Shown here piece by piece: positions 1,705 through 29,150 of a stretch of DNA of 44,969 nt (within the stretch, counting starts at the first letter, position 1; every line of letters starts with the position of its first letter). The notes beneath the pieces were generated by a model. It searched no databases, was not told where the DNA came from, and saw only the letters and a program-made list of their open reading frames with translations. Origin of the DNA: an uncultured beta proteobacterium (GTDB lineage: Bacteria > Pseudomonadota > Gammaproteobacteria > Burkholderiales > Burkholderiaceae_C); contig CAJBMJ010000060.1 in NCBI GenBank assembly GCA_903954045.1, positions 1 through 44,969 on the forward strand. Reading direction: 5' to 3'. Position numbers and translations under genes: made by a program.

Positions 1705-2523
1705 TTAAAAATGGGGAGAACGCTTTTCTAGGAAGGCTGAAATGCCCTCACGGTGCTCGGCACTATTGGCGTAGGCATAGGCCGAAGCAGCGACTGCGTC
1801 GCTATCGATTGCTACGTTTTTTATAGCTTCTTGCGCAATTTCGACGGGCGCTTGAGGCATATTTTGTCGCAGGGTTTGTTTGTTCATGCGTGCCGCTTGG
1901 GGGGCTAGCGTGGCAATGCGTTGGGCGACCAGCTGTACGTGGGTGGCGAGGTCGCCAAGTTGCATCTGCCGGGTTAGAAAACCCTGCGAGCACATATGGG
2001 CCGCATCAAATACATCAGCGGCGAGCAGCATGGCACGTGCGGTGGTGCTACCCACGGCAGAGGCAACCAAAGCAGCCTCTTTGGGCGCCATAGGAAAGCC
2101 CAGCCGCGCTATGGGGGCACCAAATTTGGCGTCCGTTGCGGCCAGACGCAAGTCACAACAGCTGGCAATTTCCAGCCCCGCGCCCATGCAATTGCCCTCG
2201 ATGTGGGCCACGATGGGCACGTCACATTGCAGCATCGCGTTGAGTCCACCCCACACTTCATTTTCATGAAAGTGCGCTAGCTGGGCCGCGTCAAACCGAA
2301 AACCCGGGTATTCGCTGATGTCGCCACCCGCGCAAAAATGACCCCCCTGGCCCCGCAGCACGACACAGCGCAGATTGGGGTCAGCCTGAATAGTTTCGAA
2401 AATCGTTTTCAGCTGAAGCCACATCGCACGCGACATGGCATTGAACTTACCCTCGTGCACAAGGGTAACGAAAGCCACGCCGCCCTGCTCCGGGTCAGCG
2501 GATAAATGAATCTGCCCCGCCAT
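1705..2523 (-). CDS. Enoyl-CoA hydratase/isomerase (crotonase) family protein
   Basis: Crotonase-fold protein of 272 residues. The oxyanion-hole segment GGHFCAGGDISEY is at about residues 60-72, and GNCMGAGLEIASCCD at 110-124 supplies the first catalytic glutamate, Glu118. The second hydratase glutamate, expected in an FGxPExxLG motif, is replaced: here the motif reads FGAPIARLG, with Ile138. Ordinary hydratase chemistry is therefore doubtful; an isomerase, hydrolase or acyl-CoA decarboxylase role is possible. A GAGGAC ribosome site precedes the ATG. It sits between the Bug receptor and matB in the malonate operon. Residues about 222-240, including AQEAIKNVA, are encoded by a dispersed 56-bp repeat. 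Confidence 0.85.
   Translation of the reverse strand: MAGQIHLSADPEQGGVAFVTLVHEGKFNAMSRAMWLQLKTIFETIQADPNLRCVVLRGQGGHFCAGGDISEYPGFRFDAAQLAHFHENEVWGGLNAMLQCDVPIVAHIEGNCMGAGLEIASCCDLRLAATDAKFGAPIARLGFPMAPKEAALVASAVGSTTARAMLLAADVFDAAHMCSQGFLTRQMQLGDLATHVQLVAQRIATLAPQAARMNKQTLRQNMPQAPVEIAQEAIKNVAIDSDAVAASAYAYANSAEHREGISAFLEKRSPHF
1811..1866 (+). repeat. Dispersed 56-bp repeat, copy in crotonase gene
   Basis: Matches GCTAC-N6-TATAGC-N3-TTGCGC exactly, followed after 10 bases by GGCGCTTGAGG and then ATTTTG. It aligns without gaps to the copy at 5014, about 45 of 60 bases by hand count including 4 flanking bases. Read on the minus strand, the gene's strand, it encodes MPQAPVEIAQEAIKNVA, close to the C-terminus of the crotonase. 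Confidence 0.85.
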
Positions 2524-2549
2524 TGATTGCTGTCCTCAGCCCGACTGGC

Positions 2550-3569
2550 TCAGTCCAGTTTGGCGCCCGAGGCCTTCACGACGGTAGCCCAGCGTTTGAT
2601 TTCAGAACTGACAAATGCACCAAACTGCTGAGGAGTCAGGTTGGGAAACTCCGCACCGTTGCTAGCCCAGCTGGCCTTGGTTTCATCGGTGGCCGCAACG
2701 CGGCGCACCTCGTCCACAATGCGCGCCTGCACATCGGCTGGAGTGCCTTTGGGGGCCCACAGGCCGTACCAGGTGGACACGGTGTAGTCGGGCAGACCCA
2801 ACTCGGCCGCGCACGGCACATCGGGAAATGCGGGATTGCGCTTGGGGCCTGACACCATCAGTGCCTTGATGCGCCCACCTTTGATGTGGGCCGCGGATGA
2901 GCCCAGACCGTCAAACATCATGTCGACGCTTCCTGCCATGAGGTCTTGCAGGGCAGGTCCAGCTCCACGATAGGGGATGTGGGTGATGAAGGTTTTGGTC
3001 TGAATTTTGAAGAGCTCGCCTGCCAGGTGGTGCGAGGTTCCACCGCCAGCCGATCCGTAATTCATCTTGCCGGGGTTCGCTTTAACCTGCGCCAAAAACG
3101 CCTTGAAATCGCCCGGCACGTTTTTCGGGTTAACCACCAGCACCTGCGGCACATTGGCGACCAGCGCCAACGGCACAAAGTCTTTCTCAATGTCGTAGTC
3201 CAGCTTGGGGTACATGGACGGTGCGATCGAGTGGTGCACTGCACCCATAAACAGGGTGTAGCCATCGGGCGCGGCCTTGGAGGCAATGCTGGCCCCCAAA
3301 GTACCGCCCGCGCCGCCTCGGTTGTCGATCACCAGCTGTTTGCCTGTGAGCTTGGCAAACTGGGCAGACATGGGACGTGCAAATGCATCGGTTCCGCCCC
3401 CCGCCGGAAACGGAACCACCAGCGTCACCGGCTTAGCAGGCCATGCGCCCTGGGCAAAGCTGCTCAGGGGCAAGCCCAGGCTACCCAATCCCGCGGCGGC
3501 CGCAGCGGCCAGCACACTGCGGCGTTGCAGGGATGTGTTTTGATTGGAGTGTGGTTTGGAATCTGTCAT
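2550..3569 (-). CDS. Bug-family tripartite tricarboxylate transporter substrate-binding protein
   Basis: Periplasmic solute-binding protein of the TctC/Bug family, 339 residues. A twin-arginine-like leader (QRRSVLAAAAAAGLGSLGLP, from residue 15) ends near SSFAQ at residue 40. The mature part opens with WPAKPVTLVVPFPAGGGTD, the family hallmark, and contains the ligand-loop segment NRGGAGGTLG and the AAPDGYTL motif. An AGGAGA site precedes the ATG. It lies between matA and the crotonase gene, so malonate or a related dicarboxylate is the probable ligand (inference). No TctA/TctB membrane subunits are encoded nearby, so it either uses a transporter elsewhere or acts in sensing. Confidence 0.92.
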   Translation of the reverse strand: MTDSKPHSNQNTSLQRRSVLAAAAAAGLGSLGLPLSSFAQGAWPAKPVTLVVPFPAGGGTDAFARPMSAQFAKLTGKQLVIDNRGGAGGTLGASIASKAAPDGYTLFMGAVHHSIAPSMYPKLDYDIEKDFVPLALVANVPQVLVVNPKNVPGDFKAFLAQVKANPGKMNYGSAGGGTSHHLAGELFKIQTKTFITHIPYRGAGPALQDLMAGSVDMMFDGLGSSAAHIKGGRIKALMVSGPKRNPAFPDVPCAAELGLPDYTVSTWYGLWAPKGTPADVQARIVDEVRRVAATDETKASWASNGAEFPNLTPQQFGAFVSSEIKRWATVVKASGAKLD

Positions 3570-3614
3570 GTCGTGTCTCCTGTGGTTTTTACTGACGCTG
3601 TTTACCGAAAAATT

Positions 3615-5129
3615 CTAAAGGCAGGCATCTTCAATGCCCCGGGAAGCCGGAATTTTGCCCTTGGCCAGCAGCGTGCGGTTTTTGTCCAGGCGCTGCAGAT
3701 CGTAAAGGTAATTGACCATCACGCCATAGGATTGCTTCAGCCCCTTGGCAGACGGGTCGCCCGCCCAATTGAGCCGCTCTATCCGAGCGCCATTGCCCAG
3801 ATGAAAACGTGCAACCGGGTCCAGTGGCTTATCGTTTTGCATTTCTTTGGCCAGGTACTGTGCAGCGCACTGCATCAGCACACGGCGCACTGGCGACTGC
3901 GCGTCCAGTTGGAGCGGCTGATCTGCTGCGCCCAGCACATGTGTGGCGGTGGGAGGCTCGAAACCCACAGCGCGCCCCAACTCCTGCAATGCCCGCTCAT
4001 CGAGCTTGTCCAGCATGGCTGGCATGTTCTTGCCAAGCCAGGAGCGTAACCCGGGAATAGGTGAAAGCGTAGCAAACGTCTTGAGCTTGGGAAATTCGGC
4101 CTTCAGGGTTTCCACTACGCGCTTGATCAGCGAGTCACCGAAGCTCACACCGCGCAGGCCCTCCTGCGTGTTGCTGATGGAGTAAAAAATGGCTGTGGTG
4201 GCGGTATTGAGGTCCACTGCATCGGCTGATTCATCCAGCAAGGGGGTGATGCAATCCGACAAAGCATCAACCAGCGCCACCTCTACAAAGATCAAAGGCT
4301 CTTCGGGCAAACGGGGGTGAAAAAAACCGTAGCAACGGCGGTCAGAGTCCAAGCGGTTTTTCACATCCGCCCAACTCTTGATATCGTGCACTGCTTCATA
4401 TTTGATGAGCTTTTCGATCAATGACGCAGGCGAATCCCAGCTGATGCGACGCAAATCCAAAAAGCCCACATCAAACCAGGTGGAGAACATGTACTCCATC
4501 TCAACGTCCAGCGCCATCAGCCGCTTGTCGGTCTTGAGGTAGGGCTGCATTTCTGCCCGCACGCCAACCAGAAACGCCACACCGCCCGGATTGGCACTAA
4601 AACGCTGCAACAGGCGTCTGCGCGGTGACACCGTAGCGCGGCGAAACTGCACTTCTGCAGCAGCCTCATCGGGCGTACCCAAAGCAGCGGCATACAGTGC
4701 TTGCGCTGCCTTGACCTTGGGCGCGTCGGCCATGAACTGCTCACTCATCAATAGCCACATGTCATGTCTGCGCGCCGCCGTGGCGCCCATGTACCAGGCG
4801 GTCAGTGTGGCCGCGCGGCGACCACCCTCCACTTCGCTGATGCGACCATCAATCACTGCCTGCAGCTCTTGCAACACCCTGCGCAGGGCGCGGGGAGATA
4901 AGGCCTCGCTTTTTTGGGCCAGCGTGGCCTGCAGGCGCTCGCGGGTGGTTCGGGGCGCCACCGCCTTGAGACCAGGCAGGCCCGTTTTCTGTTCTGCATT
5001 TCGAGGAGAGTTTGCTACTTTTTTTATAGCTTCTTGTGCAAGATTGATGAGGGCTACAGCCTCATTTGGCTTCAAATTCTTCGGCTTCCAGCGCGCTACG
5101 CTGCGGGTGATCCAAGAGTCTTGGCTCAT
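3615..5129 (-). CDS. matA: Malonyl-CoA decarboxylase
   Basis: Malonyl-CoA decarboxylase of 504 residues, converting malonyl-CoA to acetyl-CoA and CO2. The C-terminal catalytic GNAT-like domain is recognised by YGFFHPRLPEEPLIFVEVAL and the later FATLSPIPGLRSWL segment, both typical of the family. The ATG overlaps the matR stop codon (ATGA), which shows translational coupling to the regulator. With matB downstream it forms the standard malonate route malonate to malonyl-CoA to acetyl-CoA. Residues about 22-40 (ALINLAQEAIKKVAN) are encoded by a dispersed repeat; the same peptide pattern appears in the crotonase of this operon and in NadE. Confidence 0.95.
   Translation of the reverse strand: MSQDSWITRSVARWKPKNLKPNEAVALINLAQEAIKKVANSPRNAEQKTGLPGLKAVAPRTTRERLQATLAQKSEALSPRALRRVLQELQAVIDGRISEVEGGRRAATLTAWYMGATAARRHDMWLLMSEQFMADAPKVKAAQALYAAALGTPDEAAAEVQFRRATVSPRRRLLQRFSANPGGVAFLVGVRAEMQPYLKTDKRLMALDVEMEYMFSTWFDVGFLDLRRISWDSPASLIEKLIKYEAVHDIKSWADVKNRLDSDRRCYGFFHPRLPEEPLIFVEVALVDALSDCITPLLDESADAVDLNTATTAIFYSISNTQEGLRGVSFGDSLIKRVVETLKAEFPKLKTFATLSPIPGLRSWLGKNMPAMLDKLDERALQELGRAVGFEPPTATHVLGAADQPLQLDAQSPVRRVLMQCAAQYLAKEMQNDKPLDPVARFHLGNGARIERLNWAGDPSAKGLKQSYGVMVNYLYDLQRLDKNRTLLAKGKIPASRGIEDACL
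5014..5069 (+). repeat. Dispersed 56-bp repeat, copy in matA
   Basis: Exact match to GCTAC-N6-TATAGC-N3-TTGTGC, then 10 bases, AGGGCTACAGC and ATTTGG. It lies at codons about 22-40 of matA in the opposite orientation and encodes EAVALINLAQEAIKKVA there. Same orientation and same translated frame as the copy in the crotonase gene. Confidence 0.85.
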
Positions 5130-5794
5130 GCGAGTAACCTGCTTTTCTGGTTGCGAGACAGTTCGCGCAAGGCTTCGCGCTGGCGCAGCAAATGGGTGCG
5201 CATGGCGGCATCAGCGCTATCGCCATCACGCGCCTTGATCGCAGCGAACACAGCCAAATGCTCGCTCAGACTTTGATCCAGGCGTCCAGGGGCATGCAAC
5301 TGCTGCATGCGCGCCAGCTTTAGTATTTTGCGCAAATCCGCAATCACCAGGGCCAGCCATTTGTTGTTGGCCAGGGTGATGATGGCCTCGTGAATAGCGT
5401 AATTGGCGTCGTAATAGCCCTGAATGTCTTTGCTGCTGGCGTGCGCCTGCAAGCGCTGGTGCATGGTCTCTAGTGCAGCAATGTCGCCATCACTGGCGTG
5501 GGTGGCAGCCTCGTTGGCACAGCGCCCTTCCAATAATGCGATGACGGGAAAAATCTCGTCCAAATCCTGCTCGGTGACCTGGCTCACGAAGCTTCCGCGA
5601 CGCGGCTCGTGGCGCACCAGTCCTTCGGCGGCCAGCACCTTAAGGGCCTCCCGCAAGGGTGTGCGCGAGATGGCCATGTCCGCACAGAGCTGAACCTCGT
5701 CGATAAAGCTACCCGGAGCTAACTGAGCGCTAAAAATACGCTCCCGAAGCTGATTGGCAACGTCATCGTGCAGGGAGTTGTAAATAGGTCGCAT
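5126..5794 (-). CDS. matR: GntR-family (FadR/FCD) transcriptional regulator of the malonate operon
   Basis: A 222-residue regulator. The N-terminal winged helix (residues about 8-75) contains ISRTPLREALKVLAAEGLV, the GntR recognition helix, and the wing RRGSFV. The C-terminal all-helical FCD ligand domain has the spaced Asp/His residues (NYAIHEAI, LSEHLAVF, MRTHLLRQ) that usually bind a metal and an organic acid. It is the first gene of the operon and overlaps matA by 4 bases. By analogy with rhizobial MatR it probably represses the operon in the absence of malonate. A palindromic candidate operator lies at 5822-5851. Confidence 0.88.
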   Translation of the reverse strand: MRPIYNSLHDDVANQLRERIFSAQLAPGSFIDEVQLCADMAISRTPLREALKVLAAEGLVRHEPRRGSFVSQVTEQDLDEIFPVIALLEGRCANEAATHASDGDIAALETMHQRLQAHASSKDIQGYYDANYAIHEAIITLANNKWLALVIADLRKILKLARMQQLHAPGRLDQSLSEHLAVFAAIKARDGDSADAAMRTHLLRQREALRELSRNQKSRLLA

Positions 5795-5821
5795 CGTGAC
5801 GGTGAATGGCTTAAGCCGAGC

Positions 5822-5863
5822 GGTAATTTCAAATAATTATGAATAATTACCACTAATGCTAAA
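5822..5863 (-). promoter_or_regulatory. Candidate matR promoter and operator
   Basis: A 30-bp dyad has GGTAATT at 5822-5828 and AATTACC at 5845-5851, with an inner perfect repeat TAATTAT-GA-ATAATTA at 5834-5849. On the minus strand TTTAGC (5863-5858) and CATAAT (5841-5836), 16 bases apart, make a plausible -35/-10 pair whose -10 lies inside the dyad. It sits 27 bases before the matR ATG, as expected for an autoregulated GntR operator. Motif assignment is by eye. Confidence 0.5.
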
Positions 5864-5869
5864 GCCATC

Positions 5870-5884
5870 TTCCTGCGGCAGGAA
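5870..5884. repeat. Short inverted repeat upstream of matR promoter
   Basis: TTCCTG-CGG-CAGGAA, a perfect 6-bp inverted repeat just upstream of the proposed matR -35 element and 39 bases past the lgt stop. It could be a second regulatory site or a weak hairpin; there is no T-run beside it. Confidence 0.3.
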
Positions 5885-5923
5885 CAGGGGCTTACCCTAC
5901 TCAAACAAAAAAATAGAATTTAG

Positions 5924-6736
5924 TCAGGCTTGCTGAGGCCGACGGTTAGCCCATAGCCAGAGCACCACACCGCCTGCGATCATGGGAACGCACAACCACT
6001 GCCCCATGCTCATCCCCAAGGACAGCAGACCAAGGTGGGCATCGGGTTCGCGGAAAAACTCGGCGACAAAACGGAATACGCCGTAACCCAGCAGGAAGGC
6101 AGCTGCAACCTGACCGCGTTTGGGTGCGCTTGTGGCGTACCACCACAACAGGACAAACAGCAAAATTCCTTCCAGCAGAAACTGATACACCTGCGAAGGA
6201 TGGCGAGGCATGTCCCCAGCCCCCCGGAACACCATGCCCCAAGGAAGGCCGGGATCGGCCACCCGGCCCCAGAGTTCGCCATTCATGAAATTGCCAACAC
6301 GCCCCGATGCCAACCCCGTCGGCACACAGGGGGCTACAAAATCGGCCACTTGCCAAAACGGCTTTGAGCGGGACACAGAGAACCAGACCATGGAAGCAAT
6401 CACCCCCAGCATGCCGCCATGAAAACTCATGCCACCTTGCCAGACATAAAACACCTCCAATGGGTGGGCGGCGTAATAGGCAGGTTTGTAAAACAGACAG
6501 TAACCGATGCGCCCGCCCAACACCACGCCCAGCACCCCGAGAAACAAAATGTCCTCCACATCCTTGAACGACCAGGCTGAACTGCCAGTCTTGCCGAGGT
6601 AAGGGCGGTGCTTGAGCCTGCGGCTACCCAAAAACATGAACAGGCCAAAGGCCACAAGGTAAGTCAGACCGTACCAGTGCACTGCTACGGGGCCCAGCTG
6701 CAAGGCAACGGGGTCGATTTGTGGATGCATCAACAT
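5924..6736 (-). CDS. lgt: Phosphatidylglycerol--prolipoprotein diacylglyceryl transferase
   Basis: Inner-membrane enzyme (270 residues, about seven membrane spans) that moves diacylglycerol from phosphatidylglycerol to the lipobox cysteine of prolipoproteins, the first step of lipoprotein maturation. The Lgt signature [14 protein letters not shown] is complete, with the conserved HGGMLG segment before it (MSFHGGMLG) and HPSQVYQ after. It stands alone on the minus strand between the malonate operon and a small membrane protein gene. Length and motifs are normal. Confidence 0.97.
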
Positions 6737-6798
6737 AGGCCCATTGTGCCCTGACTCAAATGGTGAAACTCAGACACGGCGCACAAGGCCACACCCAA

Positions 6799-7044
6799 TT
6801 AACGCCGCTTCTTGTGATTGACAGTGCCCATGGCCTCCTTGCTGCGTAGGATGCGCGCATCGCGGCGGGCATTCTCCTTTTCCATCACCTTTCTTTTGGT
6901 GTACCCGGAGGCATCGGCCCAGGCCCACCAAGCGACTGCCAATGCAAAGGGTGCCAAAACGAAGTACCAGGGCCAGGTGGCCACAGGCCCGAATTCCAGG
7001 TACTTCATTGCCATCAAAGCAAGACCCAAAACCAATAAATACAT
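6799..7044 (-). CDS. Small Trp-rich membrane protein (TIGR04438-like)
   Basis: An 81-residue protein with two hydrophobic stretches (about residues 1-15 and 24-43) rich in tryptophan (TWPWYFVLAPFALAVAWWAWA), followed by a strongly basic tail ending NHKKRR. This resembles the small Trp-rich proteins found in betaproteobacteria; function is unknown. The start at 7044 is chosen because AGGAGA lies 6 bases before it; an upstream ATG at 7071 would place non-hydrophobic residues ahead of the first span. It is divergent from the cytochrome c gene. Confidence 0.72.
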   Translation of the reverse strand: MYLLVLGLALMAMKYLEFGPVATWPWYFVLAPFALAVAWWAWADASGYTKRKVMEKENARRDARILRSKEAMGTVNHKKRR

Positions 7045-7138
7045 GAAGTTCTCCTGAAATCCGGCAGTCACAGGACGATGTCAACCACCATCCATAGAAT
7101 CCCGTTACCGAAATGTAAACCAACCAACGAGGTATTCC

Positions 7139-7450
7139 ATGAAGCGTTCCGTGTTTGCTCTTGCCCTGAGTGCTAGCGCCATTTTTTCCGCAAGCCCGGC
7201 GTTTGCCGACTTGGCCTTGGCAACCTCAAAGAACTGCATGGCCTGCCACGCCGTAGAAAAGAAAGTGGTTGGGCCTTCCTACAAGGAAGTTGCTGCCAAA
7301 TACAAGACTGACAAAGCCGCCGCGGGCAAGCTGGCGGAAAAGATCATCAAGGGTGGTAGCGGCGCTTGGGGTGCGGTTCCCATGCCAGCCAATGCGCAGG
7401 TCAATGACGCGGAAGCCAAAAAACTGGTGGCCTGGATTCTGACGCAATAG
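7139..7450 (+). CDS. Class I c-type cytochrome (c551/c552-like)
   Basis: A 103-residue periplasmic monohaem cytochrome. A Sec signal peptide ends at SPAFA (residue 23). The haem site CMACH is at residues 33-37, and Met82 in GAVPMPAN is the likely sixth ligand, as in Pseudomonas-type cytochrome c551 electron carriers. GAGGT precedes the ATG. It is monocistronic, with a strong terminator 20 bases downstream. The redox partner cannot be read from the context. Confidence 0.93.
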   Translation: MKRSVFALALSASAIFSASPAFADLALATSKNCMACHAVEKKVVGPSYKEVAAKYKTDKAAAGKLAEKIIKGGSGAWGAVPMPANAQVNDAEAKKLVAWILTQ

Positions 7451-7470
7451 GCTTGCGCAGCTCCATACAA

Positions 7471-7500
7471 AAAGCCCATCGAATGATGGGCTTTTTTTCT
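7471..7500 (+). terminator. Rho-independent terminator, cytochrome c (possibly bidirectional)
   Basis: A perfect 10-bp stem, AAAGCCCATC-gaat-GATGGGCTTT, followed by a run of seven T. The opposite strand reads CTTTTTG after the stem, so it may also stop transcripts arriving from acs. Confidence 0.9.
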
Positions 7501-7526
7501 TGTAGCGCTTACAGATTAAGCGTGAA

Positions 7527-7547
7527 CTGCTCCTTATTCAGGAGCAG
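7527..7547 (-). other. Stem-loop after acs
   Basis: An 8-bp perfect stem, CTGCTCCT-tattc-AGGAGCAG, lies 12 bases beyond the acs stop codon. There is no T-run on the acs strand, so it may be a 3'-end stabilising hairpin rather than a terminator. Confidence 0.4.
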
Positions 7548-7559
7548 CGAGTTGGCTTA

Positions 7560-9554: not shown

Positions 9555-9750
9555 GGAAAGTCTCCTGGGGGTTATGAAAAACTGCGCGGATGTTGGTGCC
9601 AAGCACTTACATATCACTGACTTGGGCTACAGGTAGTTACCCGCCCCAGCGACTTTGAAGCGAGGCTCCCGTCAGCTGATTGTGGGGAGGATTGGCTAAA
9701 CTTGGGCGGTTTGCACCCTCCCCTCCCATTTTCAAATTGACGATCACCCC

Positions 9751-11304: not shown

Positions 11305-11315
11305 AGATCGCTTCC

Positions 11316-12134
11316 ATGGCGCTGGCTGAACGACCCATTGGCGTTTTTGACAGCGGCGTGGGGGGCTTGAGTGTGCTGCGCGCTTTATGCGCTGAATTGC
11401 CGAACGAGCGGTTTGTCTACGTGGCCGACAGTGGCCACGCGCCTTATGGTGAGCGCGATGACAGCCACGTCATTGAACGTTCTCGCGCCATCACCCACCA
11501 TTTGCGGCAACAGCACGATATCAAAGCACTGGTGGTGGCCTGCAACACCGCGACTGCAGCCGCCATTCACCTGCTGCGCGAAGAATTGGCACCACTGCCC
11601 ATCGTAGGCATAGAGCCAGCGCTCAAACCTGCGGCGGCAACCAGCCAGAACAAGCGGGTGGGCGTAATGGCGACCCGCGGCACGCTGCAAAGTGAAAAGT
11701 TCAGGATTCTTCTCGAGGGATTGAAAGAAAAAGCGCACTTTACATTGCAACCCTGCGATGGCTTGGCGATTGCCATTGAGCGAAACGACACTACAAAAAT
11801 AGGAGCACTTTGCGCAGAGTACACGGGCGCTATGGGCATATTTGGCATGTCATCAGGAGAGATGGACACACTGGTGCTGGGGTGTACCCACTATCCTTTT
11901 GTCGAACAGGTGTTGCGCCAGTACATAGGTCCCGACGTTCAACTGCTGGAGGGAGGCGCGCCCGTGGCGCGGCAAACCCGCCGCTTGCTGGAAGCGGCCG
12001 GGCAGCTGGCCAAAGGGCTACAACAACCCTCCGGTCGGACCGCTTTTTTCAGTACAGGTGACACACAGGCACTGATGGAATCGGCAAAGCGCTGGCTGCG
12101 CTGGGATGCGGATGTAACAGCGCTGAACATTTGA
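11316..12134 (+). CDS. murI: Glutamate racemase
   Basis: Makes D-glutamate for peptidoglycan; 272 residues. GVFDSGVGGLSVLR is the N-terminal motif. The two catalytic cysteines are Cys76 in VACNTAT and Cys190 in LGCTHYPF. It follows the fumarase gene by 11 bases. Residues about 159-177 (TTKIGALCAEYTGAMGIFG), shortly before the second catalytic motif, are encoded by a copy of the dispersed repeat, so this surface segment may be an insertion relative to other betaproteobacterial MurI proteins. Confidence 0.96.
   Translation: MALAERPIGVFDSGVGGLSVLRALCAELPNERFVYVADSGHAPYGERDDSHVIERSRAITHHLRQQHDIKALVVACNTATAAAIHLLREELAPLPIVGIEPALKPAAATSQNKRVGVMATRGTLQSEKFRILLEGLKEKAHFTLQPCDGLAIAIERNDTTKIGALCAEYTGAMGIFGMSSGEMDTLVLGCTHYPFVEQVLRQYIGPDVQLLEGGAPVARQTRRLLEAAGQLAKGLQQPSGRTAFFSTGDTQALMESAKRWLRWDADVTALNI
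11790..11845 (+). repeat. Dispersed 56-bp repeat, copy in murI
   Basis: Aligns without gaps to the family: ACTAC, N6, AGGAGC, N3, TTGCGC, N10, GGCGCTATGGG, N3, ATTTGG. The TATAGC block is degraded but both ends and all spacings are kept. Here the repeat runs in the direction of the gene. Alone it would be weak; the conserved spacing is what supports it. Confidence 0.65.
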
Positions 12135-12223
12135 CTCCCCTATCCAACACCAGCGGAGTGTGGCCCACAAATTATCGTTGAGGACCATTGCAAGCGCTTT
12201 ATGGCCAGCTTTACAGCGGTTGA

Positions 12224-13186: not shown

Positions 13187-13191
13187 ACCCG

Positions 13192-19384: not shown

Positions 19385-19407
19385 GTGAAGCATCTGAAAC
19401 AATTTGC

Positions 19408-20490
<1,083 letters not shown>

Positions 20491-20982: not shown

Positions 20983-21076
20983 ATAGACAGACTCCTCTTT
21001 TCGGTGCCCTCCCCCCAATGCGGTAACACCTGGGCTTGGCAAACAATAGATTCGTCAAAAATTGGTTGAAAAAAAC

Positions 21077-21132
21077 GCTACTAAAAATATAGCTAGTTGT
21101 GCTTTATCTGTAAGCGCTAGAGGACAATTTGG
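21077..21132 (+). repeat. Dispersed 56-bp repeat, ilvB-ilvN intergenic copy
   Basis: The clearest copy: GCTAC, TAAAAA, TATAGC, TAG, TTGTGC, ten bases, AGCGCTAGAGG, ACA, ATTTGG. It abuts the ilvB stop codon (21133-21135) exactly. The sequence GTGCTTTATCTGTAAGCGC can fold as a small hairpin. It is the only intact copy outside a reading frame in the window. Confidence 0.85.
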
Positions 21133-22920
21133 TTAAAGATCTTCACTGCTGAGCAGCATTTCGGTAATGCCTTTGCCAGCCTGCACCATGGGGAACACGT
21201 TTTCGGTAGGGTCGGTCCGGAAATCCATGAAAACTGTACGGTCCTTTAATTTACGGGCTTCGCGAATGGCACCTTCTACATCTCCCGGCTTTTCAATCAG
21301 CATACCCACATGGCCATAGGCTTCGGCAAGTTTGACGAAGTTCGGCAAGGCATCCATGTAGCTGTGGCTGTAGCGGCCTTCGTAATCAATTTCTTGCCAC
21401 TGTCGGACCATGCCCAGGTACCGATTGTTCAGCGCCATGATCTTGATTGGCGTGTTGTATTGCAGGCAGGTCGAGAGTTCCTGAATGCACATTTGCACGG
21501 AACCTTCCCCAGTTACACAAAAAACCTCAGACTCAGGCTTGGCCAACTTGATTCCCATGGCATAAGGGATACCGACGCCCATAGTGCCCAAGCCACCGGA
21601 ATTGATCCAGCGGCGTGGCTCATCAAAGCGGTAGTACTGTGCCGCCCACATTTGGTGCTGCCCCACATCTGAAGTGACGTAAGTATCGGTGCCTTTGGTC
21701 AAGTTCCAAAGTGTCTCGACCACATACTGCGGCTTGATCACATCGCCCTTACCGTGGTCATAGGCAAGGCAGTTTTTCTTTCTCCAACCTTCAATGGTGT
21801 CCCACCAGCCAGCCAATGCATTGGCGTCGGGCTTGACTGCGCTTTCCCTGATCATGGCAATCATCTCGGTCAGAACGTCTTTGACGTCGCCAACGATCGG
21901 AATGTCGACCCGAACCCGTTTGGAAATGCTGCTAGGGTCAATGTCGATGTGGATGATCTTGCGCTCGTTCTGAGAGAAGTGCTTTGGGTTACCAATGACA
22001 CGGTCGTCAAATCGGGCCCCGACCGCCAACAAAACATCACAGTTTTGCATGGCATTGTTGGCTTCTACAGTGCCGTGCATACCCAACATGCCGAGGAATT
22101 TCCGGTCGCTGGCCGGATACGCACCCAACCCCATCAGGGTGTTGGTACAAGGGTATCCCAGCATGTCCACCAAAGTACGCAGTTCGGCAGAGGCATTGCT
22201 GAGCAATACCCCACCGCCGGTGTAAATGTAGGGACGCTTGGCAGCAAGCAAAAGCTGCAATGCTTTGCGAATTTGACCGCCGTGGCCTTTGCGAACCGGG
22301 TTGTAGGAACGCATGGTGACCGCAGAAGGATAGCCTGTAAACGGCACCTTTTTGAAGGACACGTCCTTCGGAATATCAATCACAACGGGGCCTGGGCGAC
22401 CACTGCGGGCAATATGAAAAGCCTTCTTGATGGTCTCGGCCAAGTCGTTGGCATCCTTGACAAGGAAGTTGTGCTTCACAACGGGGCGGGTAATACCCAC
22501 GGTGTCGCACTCTTGAAAGGCGTCCAGGCCAATCGCATGAGTGGGAACCTGCCCGGTAATGATGACCATCGGGATGCTGTCCATGTAGGCGGTCGCGATA
22601 CCTGTGACAGCGTTGGTTACTCCAGGACCGGAGGTGACAAGTGCCACCCCCACATCCCCGGTTGCACGGGCGTAGCCGTCAGCGGCATGTACGGCCGCTT
22701 GCTCATGGCGCACCAACACATGCTGCATTGTGTCTTGCTTATACAGAGCGTCGTAAATGTGGAGTACCGAGCCCCCGGGATATCCCCAGATGTACTTGAC
22801 GCCCTCTGCCTGAAGACCTTTGACAAGTATTTCCGCGCCACGCAACTCTTGCGCTGCAGGTGCTGATTTCGCGTTTGAAGTAGCTGCTGCCGAAGCAATT
22901 TCGGCCTTTGAAATTTCCAT
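21133..22920 (-). CDS. ilvB: Acetolactate synthase, large catalytic subunit
   Basis: ThDP-dependent enzyme, 595 residues, making acetolactate or acetohydroxybutyrate. The N-terminal domain has GYPGGSVLHIYDAL and the catalytic glutamate in VRHEQAAVHAADGYAR; the FAD-type middle domain and the C-terminal ThDP site follow. The ThDP metal motif reads GEGS...LNNRYLGMV rather than GDGS, an Asp to Glu change that I recall in other betaproteobacterial copies. The start at 22920 (MEISKAEI) is chosen; longer in-frame sequence upstream is not protein-like. First gene of ilvBNC. The ilvI name is equally possible. Confidence 0.96.
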   Translation of the reverse strand: MEISKAEIASAAATSNAKSAPAAQELRGAEILVKGLQAEGVKYIWGYPGGSVLHIYDALYKQDTMQHVLVRHEQAAVHAADGYARATGDVGVALVTSGPGVTNAVTGIATAYMDSIPMVIITGQVPTHAIGLDAFQECDTVGITRPVVKHNFLVKDANDLAETIKKAFHIARSGRPGPVVIDIPKDVSFKKVPFTGYPSAVTMRSYNPVRKGHGGQIRKALQLLLAAKRPYIYTGGGVLLSNASAELRTLVDMLGYPCTNTLMGLGAYPASDRKFLGMLGMHGTVEANNAMQNCDVLLAVGARFDDRVIGNPKHFSQNERKIIHIDIDPSSISKRVRVDIPIVGDVKDVLTEMIAMIRESAVKPDANALAGWWDTIEGWRKKNCLAYDHGKGDVIKPQYVVETLWNLTKGTDTYVTSDVGQHQMWAAQYYRFDEPRRWINSGGLGTMGVGIPYAMGIKLAKPESEVFCVTGEGSVQMCIQELSTCLQYNTPIKIMALNNRYLGMVRQWQEIDYEGRYSHSYMDALPNFVKLAEAYGHVGMLIEKPGDVEGAIREARKLKDRTVFMDFRTDPTENVFPMVQAGKGITEMLLSSEDL

Positions 22921-23220: not shown

Positions 23221-23787
23221 TTGGCTTCTGAACTCGAACTCTCCGATTTCCTGAAAAGCGTCGAAAAACGCGCTTTCAAGCGCTCGATTTACCACGTTCG
23301 CAATGAGGAATCGGCACTGGATATCGTTCAGGACAGCATGATGAAACTGGCCGAGCACTACGGACACAAACCACCGGAAGAACTTCCCATGCTCTTCCAA
23401 CGCATATTGTCCAATTGCATTTTGGACTGGTTCAGGCGCCAGAAGACTCAAAACGCCTTGTTTTCCAATATGGGAAGCTTTGAATCCGACGAACTTGGCG
23501 AAGATTTCGACCTTTTGGAAACTTTGCAGGCCTCAGGTGACTCTGAAAAAAGCGAGAGTGCGCAAGACCTGACCGAACGGGCACAAACCTTGCGTGAAAT
23601 TGAAACGGAAATTATGCAATTGCCAGCACGTCAACGGGAAGCCTTCCTGATGCGTTATTGGGAGGAAATGGACGTGGCTGAAACTGCGGTGGCAATGGGC
23701 TGCTCTCAGGGCAGTGTGAAAACGCATTGTTCGAGAGCGGTTCACGCTTTAGGACAGGCACTAAGAGCCAAAGGGATTCGATTATGA
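23221..23787 (+). CDS. Sigma-70 family (ECF-like) RNA polymerase sigma factor
   Basis: A 188-residue two-domain sigma factor. Region 2 spans about residues 10-75 (SVEKRAFKRSIYHVRNEESA, IVQDSMMKLAEHYG, QRILSNCILDWFRRQKT) and region 4 about 125-185 (LPARQREAFLMRYWEEMDVAE then MGCSQGSVKTHCSRAVHAL). The start is proposed as TTG at 23221 because family similarity begins at ASELELSDFL; an ATG at 23086 would add 45 unlikely residues. The stop overlaps the next start (ATGA). The adjacent DUF3619 membrane protein is a candidate anti-sigma factor (inference). Confidence 0.85.
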   Translation: MASELELSDFLKSVEKRAFKRSIYHVRNEESALDIVQDSMMKLAEHYGHKPPEELPMLFQRILSNCILDWFRRQKTQNALFSNMGSFESDELGEDFDLLETLQASGDSEKSESAQDLTERAQTLREIETEIMQLPARQREAFLMRYWEEMDVAETAVAMGCSQGSVKTHCSRAVHALGQALRAKGIRL

Positions 23788-24209
23788 CAACACACATATC
23801 CAGCGTGCATTCAAACGAGCAATTTGCAAGGCGCGTTGCGTCACAGCTGAATGATGCAGCAAATCAACTGCCGCACGACATCTCTGAGAGACTCAAAGCC
23901 GCCCGCTCTTTGGCGTTGAGCAAGCGCAAGGTCGTCAAAACGGTGACAGCTTCCAACGTCAGCGTAACGGGTAACGCTCTTACCTTGCAAGGCGGGGGTG
24001 ACTGGGGCGGGCTCTGGAAATGGCTGGGTTCAGCACTGCCTTTGGTGGCTCTGGTTGCAGGTTTGATGACCATTGCCTTGGTGCAGGACGATTTACGTGC
24101 GCTGGAAGTGGCAGAAGTAGATGCTGAGTTACTGACGGACGATCTGCCGCCTGCTGCATACACCGACCCAGGTTTTACCCAGTATTTGCGTGGCGAACTA
24201 AACCGCTGA
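23784..24209 (+). CDS. DUF3619 family membrane protein, candidate anti-sigma factor
   Basis: A 141-residue protein: an N-terminal soluble part of about 85 residues (FARRVASQLNDAANQLPHDI, RLKAARSLALSKRKV), one membrane span at about residues 87-107 (WLGSALPLVALVAGLMTIALV) and an acidic C-terminal tail ending in YTDPGFTQYLRGEL. The layout, cytoplasmic helical segment plus one span, and the 4-base overlap with the sigma gene are what one expects of an anti-sigma factor, but no zinc-binding HxxxCxxC motif is present. Recognised as DUF3619 by its wording; function unproven. Confidence 0.75.
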   Translation: MTTHISSVHSNEQFARRVASQLNDAANQLPHDISERLKAARSLALSKRKVVKTVTASNVSVTGNALTLQGGGDWGGLWKWLGSALPLVALVAGLMTIALVQDDLRALEVAEVDAELLTDDLPPAAYTDPGFTQYLRGELNR

Positions 24210-24225
24210 ACACATTAAACCAAGC

Positions 24226-24891
24226 ATGATTTTTTTTGGTTTTGGTCCTTTTTTTACACCTTTCCTGCCAACCGTGACGCGTATGAGGTTGGTCTTCCTC
24301 GCCGCAATGCTCGCTGCTGCCAGTATGCCCGGACTCTTGCTCGCCCAAGTGCCCAACCCAGGCTCCCAAGCGTCGGCACCCGTGAGCAGTGCAGACACTC
24401 CTCGTTGGAACGGGTTGACGGCAACACAAAAAAAATCCCTCGCACCACTTGCAAAGACCTGGGATACCCTCAGCGATGGTCACAGGCGCAAGTGGATCGC
24501 TCTATCTTTAACCTACCCCAGCCTCGCCCCTGCCGAACAGGAAAAACTGCATAGCCGAATGGCAGAATGGGCCGCGATGAAACCCAAAGATCGTGAGCTG
24601 GCTCGACTGAACTTTGTAGAGACAAAGAAAATTGCACCCGAAAACCGGGCTGCCAACTGGGAAGCCTACCAGGCTCTGAGCGCGGAGGAACGGGGAAAAC
24701 TGGCTTCCGGCGCCCCCGGCAAGCCCAGTGGTGCTGCCATTGCCATAAAGCCTGTTCCTGGAAAAATGACCTCGGTTCCTGCAACCAGCAACGCACCAGA
24801 GTCAGCACGGCCACTCCTTAGTGGTTTGAAAGGGATTGACCCTCAAACTCTGCTTCCCCTGCGAGCATTGACGCCTGCCAGCACTGACTAA
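24226..24891 (+). CDS. DUF3106 family exported protein
   Basis: A 221-residue protein with a hydrophobic N-terminus and a DUF3106 region at about 62-150 (WNGLTATQKKSLAPLAKTWD, LSDGHRRKWIALSLTYPSL, RMAEWAAMKPKDRELARLNF). Alternating W and helical repeats suggest a periplasmic helical protein. A better signal peptide would start at the ATG at 24283 (MRLVFLAAMLAAASM ... LLAQ); neither start has a clear ribosome site. It follows the DUF3619 gene by 16 bases and precedes an RDD protein, so it belongs to the sigma factor operon. Function unknown. Confidence 0.78.
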   Translation: MIFFGFGPFFTPFLPTVTRMRLVFLAAMLAAASMPGLLLAQVPNPGSQASAPVSSADTPRWNGLTATQKKSLAPLAKTWDTLSDGHRRKWIALSLTYPSLAPAEQEKLHSRMAEWAAMKPKDRELARLNFVETKKIAPENRAANWEAYQALSAEERGKLASGAPGKPSGAAIAIKPVPGKMTSVPATSNAPESARPLLSGLKGIDPQTLLPLRALTPASTD

Positions 24892-24939
24892 AGCCCGTAA
24901 TGCGAGCCGCGAACACGGCCCACATACAATGCTGGGCGC

Positions 24940-25455
24940 ATGACACCCCAGGACTCCACCGCAAGCACCCTACCTGACACTCCCGGACTGTGGCGCCGCA
25001 TGGCGTGCTGGTTATATGAAGGAATGCTTCTATTTGGCGTGGTTTTCCTATCGGGCTATCTCTTTGGGACTCTCAGTCAGACCCGCAATGCCATGGACAA
25101 CCGGCATGCCCTGCAGGCCTTTCTCGTCATTGTGTTTGGCATTTACTTTGTGTGGTTTTGGTCCAAGGGGCAAACACTTGCGATGAAAACTTGGAACATC
25201 CGCATTGTGGACACACAGGGAATCGCAATCAGTCAGTGGCGTGCACTTTGGCGATACATCTTGAGCTGGGTGTGGTTTTTGCCGCCACTCGTTGCCGTTT
25301 CGCCGTTCAGTTTGAATGGTGCAGAGACTTTTGTCATCGTACTTGGGTGGGTTGCTTGCTGGGCACTGCTGAGCCGATTTCAGTCAGAAAACCAGTTTTG
25401 GCATGACCGGGCTGCAGGAACCAAATTGATCACGTCCAAACCTATGAGTCGGTAG
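24940..25455 (+). CDS. RDD family membrane protein
   Basis: A 171-residue inner-membrane protein with about four hydrophobic segments. The RDD hallmarks appear as LWRRMACWLYEGMLLFGVVF near the N-terminus and FWHDRAAGTKLI near the C-terminus, with the central KGQTLAMKTWNIRIVD loop. Role unknown; RDD proteins have been linked to transport. It lies 48 bases after the DUF3106 gene and 2 bases before dgkA, suggesting a single envelope-related operon. Confidence 0.85.
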   Translation: MTPQDSTASTLPDTPGLWRRMACWLYEGMLLFGVVFLSGYLFGTLSQTRNAMDNRHALQAFLVIVFGIYFVWFWSKGQTLAMKTWNIRIVDTQGIAISQWRALWRYILSWVWFLPPLVAVSPFSLNGAETFVIVLGWVACWALLSRFQSENQFWHDRAAGTKLITSKPMSR

Positions 25456-25457
25456 GC

Positions 25458-25842
25458 ATGGAGCCCGCAAAAGATTTACTGAGGCACAAACAGCGCAAGG
25501 GCTTTGTCCGCCTTTGGCACGCGACCATGTTTTCATTTGCTGGACTGAAGGACGCCTGGAATGAAACAGCCTTTCGACAGGAAAGTCTGGCGGCCTTGCT
25601 ACTCATCCCCTGTGCATTTTGGTTGGGGCAGAACTGGGTCGAGACGACATTGCTGGCGGGCAGCGTGGTTTTGCTGATGGTGGTTGAGCTTCTCAACACA
25701 GGTATTGAAGCTACCGTTGACCGAATTAGTCCAGAATGGCATCCCCTATCCAGACGCGCCAAGGATATGGGGAGTGCCGCGGTACTGCTGAGCTTGCTGT
25801 TGTGCGCCGGAATCTGGGTAGCTGCCCTCTACCAAAAGATGT

Positions 25843-25847
<5 letters not shown>
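25458..25847 (+). CDS. dgkA: Diacylglycerol kinase (prokaryotic DgkA)
   Basis: A 129-residue trimeric membrane kinase recycling diacylglycerol to phosphatidic acid. The signature ELLNTGIEATVDRIS, with catalytic glutamates, lies between the second and third spans; FRQESLAALLL and SRRAKDMGSAAVLLSLL mark the others. It begins 2 bases after the RDD gene. Diacylglycerol arises in membrane-derived glycan synthesis, consistent with an envelope operon. Confidence 0.95.
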
Positions 25848-26214
<367 letters not shown>

Positions 26215-27891
26215 TCAGGCCCGAAAGCTGTTGGTAATAGGATAACGCCAATCCTTGCCAAAGCTGCGGTGGGTTACCCGAATTCCAACCGGTGCCTGAC
26301 GACGTTTGTATTCATTGATTTTGATGAGGCGGGTCACTTTTTCCACATCTTCGCGGGCAAATCCCGCCTCCACAATGGTGTCGATGCTCTGGTCGTTCTC
26401 CATGTAGCGCTCCACAATAGCATCCAAAACATCGTATGGAGGCAAACTGTCCTGATCCTTTTGGTCTGGTCTCAGTTCTGCGCTGGGAGGACGCTCAATG
26501 ATCCGCTCAGGTATGGGATTTTTGCCTGAGCCATAGGGGTCATTGTCATTGCGCCAACGGGCCAGCCGGAAAACAAGTGTCTTGGCGATGTCCTTGATCA
26601 CAGCAAAGCCACCCGCCATATCGCCATACAAAGTGCAATAGCCCGTGGCCATTTCCGACTTATTGCCCGTTGTCAACACAATGCTGCCGAACTTGTTGCT
26701 CAACGCCATCAGCAGCGTGCCACGAATCCGCGCTTGGATGTTTTCTTCCGTCGTATCCTCCGCCCGGCCCTGAAAGTCGGCGGCCAAAGAAGCCTTGAAC
26801 GCTTCAAACTGCGGCACGATTGAAATTTCTTCATAGGCGACGCCCAATCGCCGAGCCATTTCCCGCGCGTCAATCCAACTGATATCCGCGGTGTAAGGCG
26901 AAGGCATCATGACCGTCCGAACCTTCTGTGGGCCCAATGCATCAACAGCAATTGCCAACACCAAGGCAGAGTCAATGCCCCCTGACAGACCCAACAAGGC
27001 TCCGGGGAAACCATTTTTCCCAATGTAGTCGCGCACGCCTAACACCAGGGCATCCCACAAGTCTGCTTCCGGCGTGCGCAAAGGCTCCACATTCGCTACT
27101 ATATTTATAGCGCCTTGTGCTCTGTTTACCTGGGCTAGGAACAGATTTTCCTGAAAACTGGGAGCACGCCCCACTACAGCGCCGCCGGCGTCCAGTACGA
27201 AGGAGTGGCCCTCGAAAACCACTTCATCCTGCCCTCCAACCAAATGGGCGTAGACCGTCGGCAACCCCGTAGCTACCGCGCGCTGCGCCAGAGTGGCCTC
27301 ACGCTCATACCCTTTACCAACGTGAAATGGCGAAGCATTGATCACCGCCAGCATTTCGGCTCCCGCCTCTCGCGCCAGACGCGCTGGCTCTTCAAACCAG
27401 GCATCTTCGCAAATCAGCAAGCCAATTCGTACTTTTTGGTCTGAGGCTCCGGCTTCGAAAACACAAACTCCCCTGCCTGGCGTGAAATACCTACGCTCGT
27501 CGAACACCTGGTAATTGGGTAACTCACGCTTGGCATAGCTTGCAACGACGCGGCCTTCCTGCAGTACGCTGGCGGCATTGAAGCGACTTTGCACAGCGAC
27601 AGAACGGGTACGCAAATCACCACCGGTAGGGTGTCCCACTACCACCGTCATGTCTTTTAACCCGGCGGTCTGCTGTGCCACTGCATTCACGGCATCATCG
27701 CATGCTGAAATAAAGGCGGGTCTCAAAAACAGGTCTTCTGCTGCATAACCGCAAATAGACAGCTCTGGAGTGAGCAGCAGACGGGCACCCTCTGCGTAGG
27801 CGTGGTGTGCAGCATCAACAATTTTCCGAGCATTGCCGTCCAGATCGCCAACAATGAAATTGAGTTGTGCAACGCACAGGGTGAGAGTCAT
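26215..27891 (-). CDS. nadE: Glutamine-dependent NAD+ synthetase
   Basis: Two-domain enzyme of 558 residues. The N-terminal nitrilase-type glutaminase has the triad Glu43 (PELSICGY), Lys121 (KRELPNY) and Cys161 (LLICEDAWF). The C-terminal synthetase has the P-loop GLSGGIDSAL at about 301-310. It amidates deamido-NAD+ with ammonia channelled from glutamine. The linker between the domains, residues about 251-268 (AQVNRAQGAINIVANVE), is encoded by a dispersed repeat. Cotranscribed with glnB downstream. It diverges from the FemAB-like gene, 62 bases away. Confidence 0.96.
   Translation of the reverse strand: MTLTLCVAQLNFIVGDLDGNARKIVDAAHHAYAEGARLLLTPELSICGYAAEDLFLRPAFISACDDAVNAVAQQTAGLKDMTVVVGHPTGGDLRTRSVAVQSRFNAASVLQEGRVVASYAKRELPNYQVFDERRYFTPGRGVCVFEAGASDQKVRIGLLICEDAWFEEPARLAREAGAEMLAVINASPFHVGKGYEREATLAQRAVATGLPTVYAHLVGGQDEVVFEGHSFVLDAGGAVVGRAPSFQENLFLAQVNRAQGAINIVANVEPLRTPEADLWDALVLGVRDYIGKNGFPGALLGLSGGIDSALVLAIAVDALGPQKVRTVMMPSPYTADISWIDAREMARRLGVAYEEISIVPQFEAFKASLAADFQGRAEDTTEENIQARIRGTLLMALSNKFGSIVLTTGNKSEMATGYCTLYGDMAGGFAVIKDIAKTLVFRLARWRNDNDPYGSGKNPIPERIIERPPSAELRPDQKDQDSLPPYDVLDAIVERYMENDQSIDTIVEAGFAREDVEKVTRLIKINEYKRRQAPVGIRVTHRSFGKDWRYPITNSFRA
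27095..27150 (+). repeat. Dispersed 56-bp repeat, copy in nadE
   Basis: Exact GCTAC-N6-TATAGC-N3-TTGTGC, then N10, TGGGCTAGGAA, N3, ATTTTC. The first 27 bases (from CGCTAC to GTGC) match the ilvB-ilvN copy at 21 positions with the same spacing. On the gene strand it encodes AQVNRAQGAINIVA, the same AQxAIxxVA pattern as in MatA and the crotonase. Confidence 0.82.
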
Positions 27892-27953
27892 GAAACAGCA
27901 AAATTATGGTTGCAGCAGGCATACAACTACGGCCGCTGCACAAGGAACACTCC

Positions 27954-29150
27954 ATGCAGCGCGATGATTATGTCATTCGGTTGAGTACCCACCCTCGGGA
28001 CGTGGACGCGAAATCTTGGGATGCGTTGCTCCGACTCCAAGAGCAACCGACCCCATTCATGCGCCATGCCTATTTGGCTGCGCTGCATGAAAGTGGCAGC
28101 GCATGCCCGGAAACGGGGTGGATACCCCATTTTTTGACTCTGCATGCAGGCCCCGCTCTTGTGGCTGCTTGCGTGGTTTACCTGAAGACGCACTCTCATG
28201 GGGAGTATGTTTTTGATTGGGCCTGGGCCAGTGCCTACCAGCAGCATGGCGTTGCCTATTACCCGAAGGCTGTAGTTGCAGTGCCATTTACGCCCGTGCC
28301 CGGAACGCGCTTGCTTGCCAGAGATACCGATGCCCGCATTGCGCTACTGCGCGAACTGCTAGCCTGGAGTGAGCGGATGGGTGTCTCTTCCATTCATTTG
28401 TTGTTTAGTACCGATGAGGACACATTCGCCAGCAAGCAACTGGGAATGATGCAGCGCAATACTGTTCAATTCCATTGGACGAATACACAACCTGCATTGA
28501 CAAGCTTCGAGACCTTTCTGGGCACACTCACCCAGGAAAAGCGAAAGAAAATCCGACAGGAAAGAAGAAAAGTCGCAGATGCAGGGGTCAGTTTTCAATA
28601 TGCAAAGGGGACGGAAATTACTCCCGCCCAGTGGGAGTTCTTTTATCGTTGTTACGAGAAGACCTACTGGGAGCACGGCAACCCGCCCTACTTGAGTCGC
28701 GATTTCTTTGCTCGCATGGCCAGCACCATGCCTGAGCACTGGTTGCTGTTCATCGCCTACCGTGAACAGCAACCGATTGCTAGTAGTTTGATAGCAATTG
28801 ATGAAGTAAGCACGGGCGATACGATGGATTTCAACCCGCCAATGAAGAAGATTGCCTACGGCCGCTATTGGGGCGCATTGGAAAGGGTTGATTGCCTTCA
28901 TTTCGAGGCCTGTTTCTACCAACCCCTGCAATGGTGCATTGAAAATGCCTATGACCGGTTTGAGGGCGGAGCTCAGGGCGAACACAAAATGGCAAGGGCA
29001 CTACTTCCAGTCAAAACCAATAGTGCGCATTGGATAGCCCATCCGGCATTCGCAGACGCGGTCGCCAGATTTTTGGAGCGTGAAGGCCAAGGCATTGGAA
29101 ACTACCTTCAGGACTTGCAGGAACGCATCCCCTTTAAACAAACGCTTTGA
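27954..29150 (+). CDS. FemAB/GNAT-like acyltransferase (peptidogalycan biosynthesis-like, DUF482)
   Basis: A 398-residue protein of the GNAT-fold FemAB-like group once called DUF482. Recognisable blocks are PFMRHAYLAALHESGSA, LTQEKRKKIRQERRKV, YEKTYWEHGNPPYLSRDFF, GRYWGALE, LHFEACFYQPLQWCIE and FEGGAQGEHKMARALLPV. The acyl donor and acceptor are not known. AAGGA precedes the ATG at 27954. Residues about 276-293 (ASSLIAIDEVSTGDTMDF), just before the conserved GRYWG block, are encoded by a dispersed repeat; in relatives, as I recall them, this loop is shorter. Confidence 0.88.
   Translation: MQRDDYVIRLSTHPRDVDAKSWDALLRLQEQPTPFMRHAYLAALHESGSACPETGWIPHFLTLHAGPALVAACVVYLKTHSHGEYVFDWAWASAYQQHGVAYYPKAVVAVPFTPVPGTRLLARDTDARIALLRELLAWSERMGVSSIHLLFSTDEDTFASKQLGMMQRNTVQFHWTNTQPALTSFETFLGTLTQEKRKKIRQERRKVADAGVSFQYAKGTEITPAQWEFFYRCYEKTYWEHGNPPYLSRDFFARMASTMPEHWLLFIAYREQQPIASSLIAIDEVSTGDTMDFNPPMKKIAYGRYWGALERVDCLHFEACFYQPLQWCIENAYDRFEGGAQGEHKMARALLPVKTNSAHWIAHPAFADAVARFLEREGQGIGNYLQDLQERIPFKQTL
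28779..28834 (+). repeat. Dispersed 56-bp repeat, copy in FemAB-like gene
   Basis: A diverged copy: GCTAG, N6, GATAGC, N3, a degraded TTGYGC block, N10, GGCGATACGAT and then ATTTC displaced by one base. The spacing is otherwise that of the family. It lies in the gene's direction, in the same forward frame as the murI copy. Confidence 0.6.

Follow-up and report, generated by a model that had tools for sequence, protein, structure and literature searches.

Does a short repeat that recurs inside genes have to have been inserted there? The question is raised by a sequence of about 60 bp that occurs six times in the stretch of DNA analyzed here (the window, 44,969 nucleotides [nt] long), which is contig C60 of a draft genome comprising 4.42 Mb in 605 contigs. 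The nadE gene of the window is nearest, at 84 to 86%, to those of Rhodoferax and Burkholderiales bins, and we therefore call the genome Rhodoferax-like. An initial annotation had described a rigid repeat located mainly inside genes, built like a mobile palindromic element and comparable to the Rickettsia palindromic elements (RPE). The six sequences are present where it had placed them, and four of them match GCTAC-N6-TATAGC-N3-TTGYGC exactly, as it had claimed. Many such sites occupy one and the same position in several species, some of them within conserved genes that gained little or no DNA there, and the repeat behaves more like a recognition signal than like a mobile element.

With up to three mismatches allowed, the pattern matched four times in the window, versus a mean of 0.28 in shuffled sequence; with at most one mismatch, it matched 43 times in the whole genome, versus 0 for the reversed pattern. 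A profile scan, proposed in the initial annotation, was run with model R1, built from 30 copies of the genome aligned without gaps. It returned at least 150 copies with E values of 3.5e-6 or lower (the best 150 of 1,940 first-look candidates, 150 of 150 passing), and the regions of 145 of these 150 matches were followed up. A 797-kb sequence contained 70 motif matches, and 0 after block shuffling. The repeat family is real and has well over 100 copies. Its conserved block extends over about 68 bp, from positions -4 to +63 around GCTAY, with a core consisting of GCTAY-N7-ATAGCTGCTTGYGC, a variable middle, GSGCTAGAGGC, and finally a T or A tract. The term “rigid” is thus appropriate for the motif positions but not for the middle, as positions 27 to 32 carry little information in this genome.

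We determined how widely the repeat is distributed. In the GTDB family, 82 of 200 genomes had at least one match and 46 of 200 at least 10 (counted by hand), with a maximum of 701, as opposed to a single match in 3 of 291 genomes from other families of the same order. “Carrier” status here was set by one pattern, which some of the dialects described below fit less well. The copies are confined to one family, at 0 to about 700 per genome, and the suggestion in the initial annotation that similar sequences are scattered in Comamonadaceae was borne out by copies in Comamonadaceae-type genomes. BLAST searches of plasmids with a composite copy gave eight records, including Diaphorobacter, Comamonas, and Acidovorax, and a viral collection (2.9 million contigs) contained 30 stretches with the motif pattern. 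Plasmid NC_004956.1 of Pseudomonas sp. ADP has a stretch outside its listed genes (33904 to 33967) with 78% identity to the composite copy, which perhaps marks DNA of Comamonadaceae origin.

Parts of this family have probably been seen before. In the section concerned, a 2017 survey (PMC5217627) reports two spaced pairs as unexplained “potential novel motifs”: GCTTAT(N)5AAGCG, with 114 copies in Acidovorax ebreus, 107 of them intergenic, and ATAGCT(N)22CAAAAG, with 125 copies in Polaromonas naphthalenivorans, 101 of them intergenic. The A. ebreus pattern corresponds to the center of two copies from related genera seen in this work (L358 and L384), and both spaced pairs resemble our repeat in their copy numbers and nearness to gene ends. 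To judge from these sequences, the motifs of that section are probably this repeat family, the P. naphthalenivorans pair being only a candidate. Unlike our repeat, the survey pairs are mostly intergenic, and dialects, in-gene conservation, and mechanism lie outside that section of the survey. Beyond PMC5217627, our literature search, outside of which most subscription papers lay, found no description of the family.

We then located the copies relative to genes, as called by a rough codon-based caller made for this analysis. Among 156 distinct copies, 67 lie in genes and 49 between them, while 30 extend over the 3′ end of a gene and 10 over a 5′ end, so that the initial description as mainly intragenic holds for the window (five of six copies) but not for the genome. 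The in-gene copies are strict in their use of frame: one frame per orientation accounts for 36 of the 41 antisense copies and 19 of the 26 sense ones (55 of 67). From our own reading of the sequence, the preferred frame appears to be the one in which the TAG triplets of the motif are avoided. In G034, which has the most copies in the family scan, 23 of the 31 copies with the exact pattern lie between genes, 6 overlap genes, and 2 lie inside them (30 of 216 matches covered). Among the matches first listed, copies seemed to face one direction along the chromosome, which suggested replication polarity; this was rejected because strands were mixed in a second list, complete to about 2.0 Mb, and also on contigs of a same-genus genome compared with GC skew.

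The sites inside genes were compared with homologous proteins. As judged from alignments, the motif falls on conserved protein in nadE, yggS, coaBC, pgi, dppD, and mutS, and the length there changes little or not at all. YggS and CoaBC align without gaps through the site with PDB homologues that we take to be those of E. coli. The net change relative to PDB homologues is 0 for PGI (glucose-6-phosphate isomerase), +2 residues for DppD, and +3 and 0 for NadE against two enzymes, presumably of Burkholderia and Acinetobacter. Five of the seven proteins aligned through the site thus differ by 0 to 3 residues; a PDB search with the L247 protein gave no match at threshold. Forty proteins, chosen from the hosts of the 67 in-gene copies, were analyzed with Pfam. 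The site falls within a domain stretch in 21 of them, and 10 of these stretches are at most 6 residues longer than the profile (two are 11 and 16 residues shorter), while 5 others, more than 50 residues longer, are uninformative.

A same-genus genome, G119, provided a closer comparison, with 1.2 Mb covered and an orthologue for 17 in-gene copies. Fourteen of the 17 are present at the same site in both genomes, and the length differences at the other three are 0, 0, and 12 residues. At 15 internal sites, at 12 of which both genomes carry the motif, the length in G119 minus that in our genome is net 0 at 11, and +2, -4, -8, and -12 at the others. We also looked for counterparts of 31 nongenic copies with an orthologous neighbor in G119, up to 250 bp from the position expected; 18 of the 31 have one, versus 6% expected from copy density, and 16 of these 18 counterparts are in the same orientation.

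We next examined nadE (26215 to 27891, minus strand; Pfam), which hosts the fifth window copy, using 80 orthologues (L061 to L140). The score at the motif site is at least 25 in 44 of them and below 12 in 32, and 31 of these 32 motif-less orthologues are of equal length, the other being two residues shorter. For codon usage, 73 orthologues less than 90% identical were picked regardless of the motif. Residues 247 to 266, the motif window, are the most codon-biased stretch of 20 codons in the gene (rank-sum p 7e-8). Valine at residue 265 is encoded by GTA in 22 of 25 cases, versus 7.5% overall, and alanine at residue 261 by GCT in 46 of at least 52, versus 9.9% overall. The DNA of nadE is itself constrained at the site, and codon choice follows the motif. 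Where both members of an orthologue pair have the motif, 66.5% of its bases are shared, versus 46.5% where both lack it, at similar flank identity. We also looked for a clean gain or loss in nadE, but the closest mixed pair, with 91% flank identity, was too diverged to read. Finally, synonymous recoding of the 67 in-gene copies (300 tries each) reached the observed score for none of them (mean 1.0 versus 53.8). The weight matrix includes the copies scored with it, except in the dialect test described below, from which the mutS copies were excluded; the gap upon recoding is too large to stem from this.

The mutS site was investigated in 24 genomes chosen with their copy numbers known and their sites unseen, in comparison with our own. 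The protein stretch across the site has exactly 53 residues in 22 of the 24 relatives, 68 in G030, 63 in G001, and 85 in our genome. The motif score ranges from 19 to 57 in 18 carriers, our genome included, and from -70 to 11 in 7 noncarriers, with no overlap, and there is a correlation with the number of copies per genome (Spearman 0.75, p 1.3e-5). Our own MutS (L253) has 32 extra residues at about positions 386 to 417, starting at the 3′ edge of the motif. These some 30 residues were rejected as an element insertion because they begin at that edge and are peculiar to our genome.

Several genomes spell the motif differently, with CTTAGGC in G030, CTTGAGC in G034, and GCGCTT...AAGCGC in copies of others. 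We asked which spelling the mutS copy follows, using 27 central columns and matrices made without mutS, in three genomes (G119, G115, and G014 have no matrix of their own). The copy of G000 scored 25.1 under its own matrix versus 19.2 and 12.9 under the others, that of G034 29.0 versus 24.0 and 23.7, and that of G030, whose matrix was made from 6 copies, 18.2 versus 5.2 and -9.0. The mutS copy therefore fits the spelling of its own genome best in all three testable genomes, and the simplest reading of these sequences is that dispersed sites changed together, including one whose position within a conserved gene is fixed.

How, then, might such a repeat arise and be kept? We regard it as an evenly balanced proposition that the repeat represents one class of sites of a signal that is spread over the genome, measures about 60 bp, and is recognized in duplex DNA, similar to an uptake sequence but much longer. 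A putative trans-acting DNA-binding factor would read the motif, and its job could be DNA uptake, chromosome handling, or another. Shifts in the specificity of this factor would cause the sites to drift along under selection or drive; a joint drift of this kind has been proposed for DNA uptake sequences and the protein that reads them. Fresh, well-formed copies would also enter spacers and the 3′ ends of genes. The strongest dependencies within the motif are between neighboring bases (GG or AA at positions 35 and 36, TTT or AAA at positions 51 to 53), which looks like DNA-shape readout.

The DNA uptake sequences (DUS) and uptake signal sequences (USS) of Neisseriaceae and Pasteurellaceae have a core of 10 to 12 bp (about 30 bp for USS with their tracts) and occur about once per kb. 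Our repeat resembles them in its genome-wide consensus, its presence within coding DNA, its lineage dialects, and its restriction to a family, and also in occupying coding sites without insertion, apart from the longer sites and the L116 case described below. It differs in its length of about 60 bp and its density of about one per 6 to 30 kb (at least 150 in 4.4 Mb).

A broader and more tentative proposal, which in our judgment falls somewhat short of probable, is that of a Comamonadaceae recognition code, i.e., a duplex-DNA signal of about 60 bp with lineage dialects that would occupy hundreds of fixed positions, a large number of them in core genes (mutS and nadE, for example), would evolve in concert without insertion, and would be lost where its putative reader is lost. 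If this were true, the code would be a previously uncharacterized one, and core proteins of a common environmental family would be shaped by a DNA-level signal unrelated to their function. The dialects could then be used to find the reader of the signal. The repeat would also offer a natural test of concerted evolution among dispersed repeats that do not transpose; as a rule, this has been asked only of uptake sequences, which are much shorter.

Several observations weigh against a recognition signal. We identified no protein that reads the motif, and to our knowledge no uptake sequence comes near the motif in length or is as sparse. Copies resemble one another slightly more than expected: the mean nearest-neighbor identity in our genome is 0.71, versus 0.69 in simulations with independent columns, the top pairs reach 0.84 to 0.91 versus a simulated maximum of 0.81, and in G034 the value is 0.80 versus 0.78, reached in 0 of 200 shuffles. 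Some copying must therefore have happened. Some proteins are longer at the site, namely, enoyl-CoA hydratase (+6 residues relative to the sole aligned motif-less homologue), TilS (+6 relative to its PDB homologue), DapF (+11 relative to PDB enzymes, yet of the same length as its motif-less G119 orthologue), and L156 (12 residues longer than its motif-less G119 orthologue). Six of the 21 site-bearing Pfam stretches are 12 to 20 residues longer than the profile. Thirteen of the 31 nongenic sites, several of the best-scoring ones among them, have no nearby copy in G119. Last, in the relative L116, a well-formed copy is part of an 87-bp in-frame insertion in a gene that we take to be moeA. The corresponding site is empty in L111, L091, and the window, and L113 is also different at this position. 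Many copies in spacers turn over, and the L116 case and the new spacer copies indicate that some route of insertion exists.

There is a serious rival, which we rate as possible but unlikely. The repeat would be a repetitive extragenic palindrome (REP)-like, nonautonomous element moved by a single-copy RAYT (Y1 transposase), whose substrate would be RTAG followed by an imperfect palindrome, and the in-gene copies would be ancient relics. A Y1_Tnp match is present in 82 of 120 genomes of the family, i.e., in 28 of 29 genomes with at least 10 copies versus 54 of 91 others (hand count). Directly behind the RAYT stop codon, in antisense, the motif matrix score is at least 5 in 9 of 20 carriers (best 40) versus 0 of 20 noncarriers, and at least a GCTAY-like part was recognized there by eye in about 15 carriers and 3 noncarriers. 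Some copies of other genera also contain GCGC..GCGC stems with swapped pairs. Conversely, RAYT orthologues are common in noncarriers, the carrier G092 is not among the Y1_Tnp matches, and the RAYT of our own genome has no adjoining copy. The proposed stem forms 584 pairs in our own copies versus a shuffle mean of 593, and 80 versus 77 shuffled in 18 copies of four other genomes. Thus, the predicted pairing is not retained above shuffle. The copies look much as if they had been drawn independently from the weight matrix, and a single pair has common flanks; copying by recent transposition was rejected on this ground, though identity is slightly above simulation. The link between RAYT and the repeat is suggestive, and it leaves the in-gene sites, most of which show little or no length change, unaccounted for.

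REPINs beside RAYTs are described in PMC3116915. Like the REP/REPIN-RAYT systems, as presented in the relevant part of that paper, our repeat has more than 100 copies, and nearly every carrier has a Y1 transposase gene; by matrix score, a copy stands behind RAYT in 9 of 20 carriers, but not in our own genome. It is unlike them in that 43% of the copies are intragenic, hairpin pairing is not conserved, and protein length hardly changes at most in-gene sites; the repeat is not extragenic, G034, with its mostly intergenic exact copies, being different in this respect. A RAYT-like gene that occurs across much of the family has an end sequence of its own, independent of the repeat (loci L371 to L390), with RTGTCCC after the stop codon and, in several, GGAATCTGACCCC further on. 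G014 has eighteen Y1-transposase matches, several of them with identical scores, and 482 motif-pattern matches.

RPEs are insertions tolerated in frame within proteins, and an RPE-like mobile sequence inserted in this way, as the initial annotation had suggested, is in our view improbable. In-frame tolerance itself is well supported, since the repeat uses a compatible frame inside proteins, and the L116 insertion with its empty sites and the four proteins longer by 6 to 12 residues (enoyl-CoA hydratase, TilS, DapF, and L156) would also be expected of such an element. In contrast, insertion with empty sites did not hold at most testable in-gene sites: the aligned proteins mostly show little or no change relative to PDB homologues and to G119, with which most in-gene copies are shared, 10 of the 21 Pfam stretches exceed the profile by at most 6 residues, and the mutS and nadE sites agree with this. 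Our repeat is mostly an overlay on existing protein, unlike RPEs. On these sequence comparisons, RPE-like insertion appears already refuted for most of the sites tested.

An RNA-level element of gene 3′ ends, such as a terminator or a processing or stability signal, is very improbable. It would account for the threefold excess of copies over 3′ ends relative to 5′ ends, and for the copies of PMC5217627 near gene ends, often between convergent genes in the section cited, but not for the 67 intragenic copies in both orientations. At the gathering threshold of Rfam, the motif copies had no match, the window giving only the ilvH RNA and two tRNAs, and RNAalifold predicted just 4 pairs, in none of which both sides had changed. 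An RNA or hairpin function was rejected for lack of covariation. Chance similarity or protein-coding coincidence, for which nothing of weight speaks apart from the overlap of the murI copy with a conserved protein stretch, is already refuted by the empty reversed-pattern and block-shuffled controls and by the recoding of the in-gene copies.

In the window itself, R1 detected five of the six copies, four strongly and one more weakly; the four strong ones were among its 30 training sequences, so that their match is partly by construction. All six are in the plus orientation. Copy 1 (1807 to 1868; 53.1 bits, E 9.1e-16) is antisense in the enoyl-CoA hydratase gene (1705 to 2523, minus strand; Pfam ECH_1) and reads ...EIAQEAIKNVA... 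in the protein. Copy 2 (5010 to 5078; 58.1 bits, E 2.4e-17) is antisense in the part of the malonyl-CoA decarboxylase gene (3615 to 5129, minus strand; Pfam MCD) that encodes an N-terminal stretch; this region varies in length among relatives, so that insertion cannot be judged there. The weaker copy 3 (11791 to 11847; 23.6 bits, E 1.5e-6) is in sense in the glutamate racemase gene murI (11316 to 12134, plus strand; Pfam Asp_Glu_race), for which 6 of 16 aligned motif-less homologues are equal in length and the other listed ones are 4 to 11 residues longer. Copy 5 (27091 to 27158; 47.5 bits, E 4.9e-14) is antisense in nadE, in the linker between the CN_hydrolase and NAD_synthase domains.

Copy 4 (21073 to 21139; 47.3 bits, E 5.9e-14) is in the ilvB-ilvH spacer and overlaps the ilvB stop codon by 2 bases. 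The spacer stretch measures 154 to 177 nt in carriers recognized by eye and 88 to 130 nt in many noncarriers; it is not decisive as proof of an empty site because some noncarriers also have 139 to 169 nt. The ilvH RNA (Rfam RF02993; 20989 to 21056, minus strand) adjoins this copy. In relatives L098, L100, L095, L105, L113, L116, and L131, the spacer seems to be nearly gone (20 to 30 nt by our measure), and the ilvH RNA has apparently been lost too, though no RNA search was made there.

Copy 6 (28773 to 28844), in sense in a FemAB-like gene (27906 to 29150, plus strand), was absent from the R1 matches and has an in-place matrix score of 14.9. In a comparison made from L065, 24 other loci carry an R1 match at this place. 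These matches of relatives stand at the same distance from nadE, and copy 6 aligns base by base with their well-formed copies. By this alignment, it is a decayed copy at a place where relatives carry good ones.

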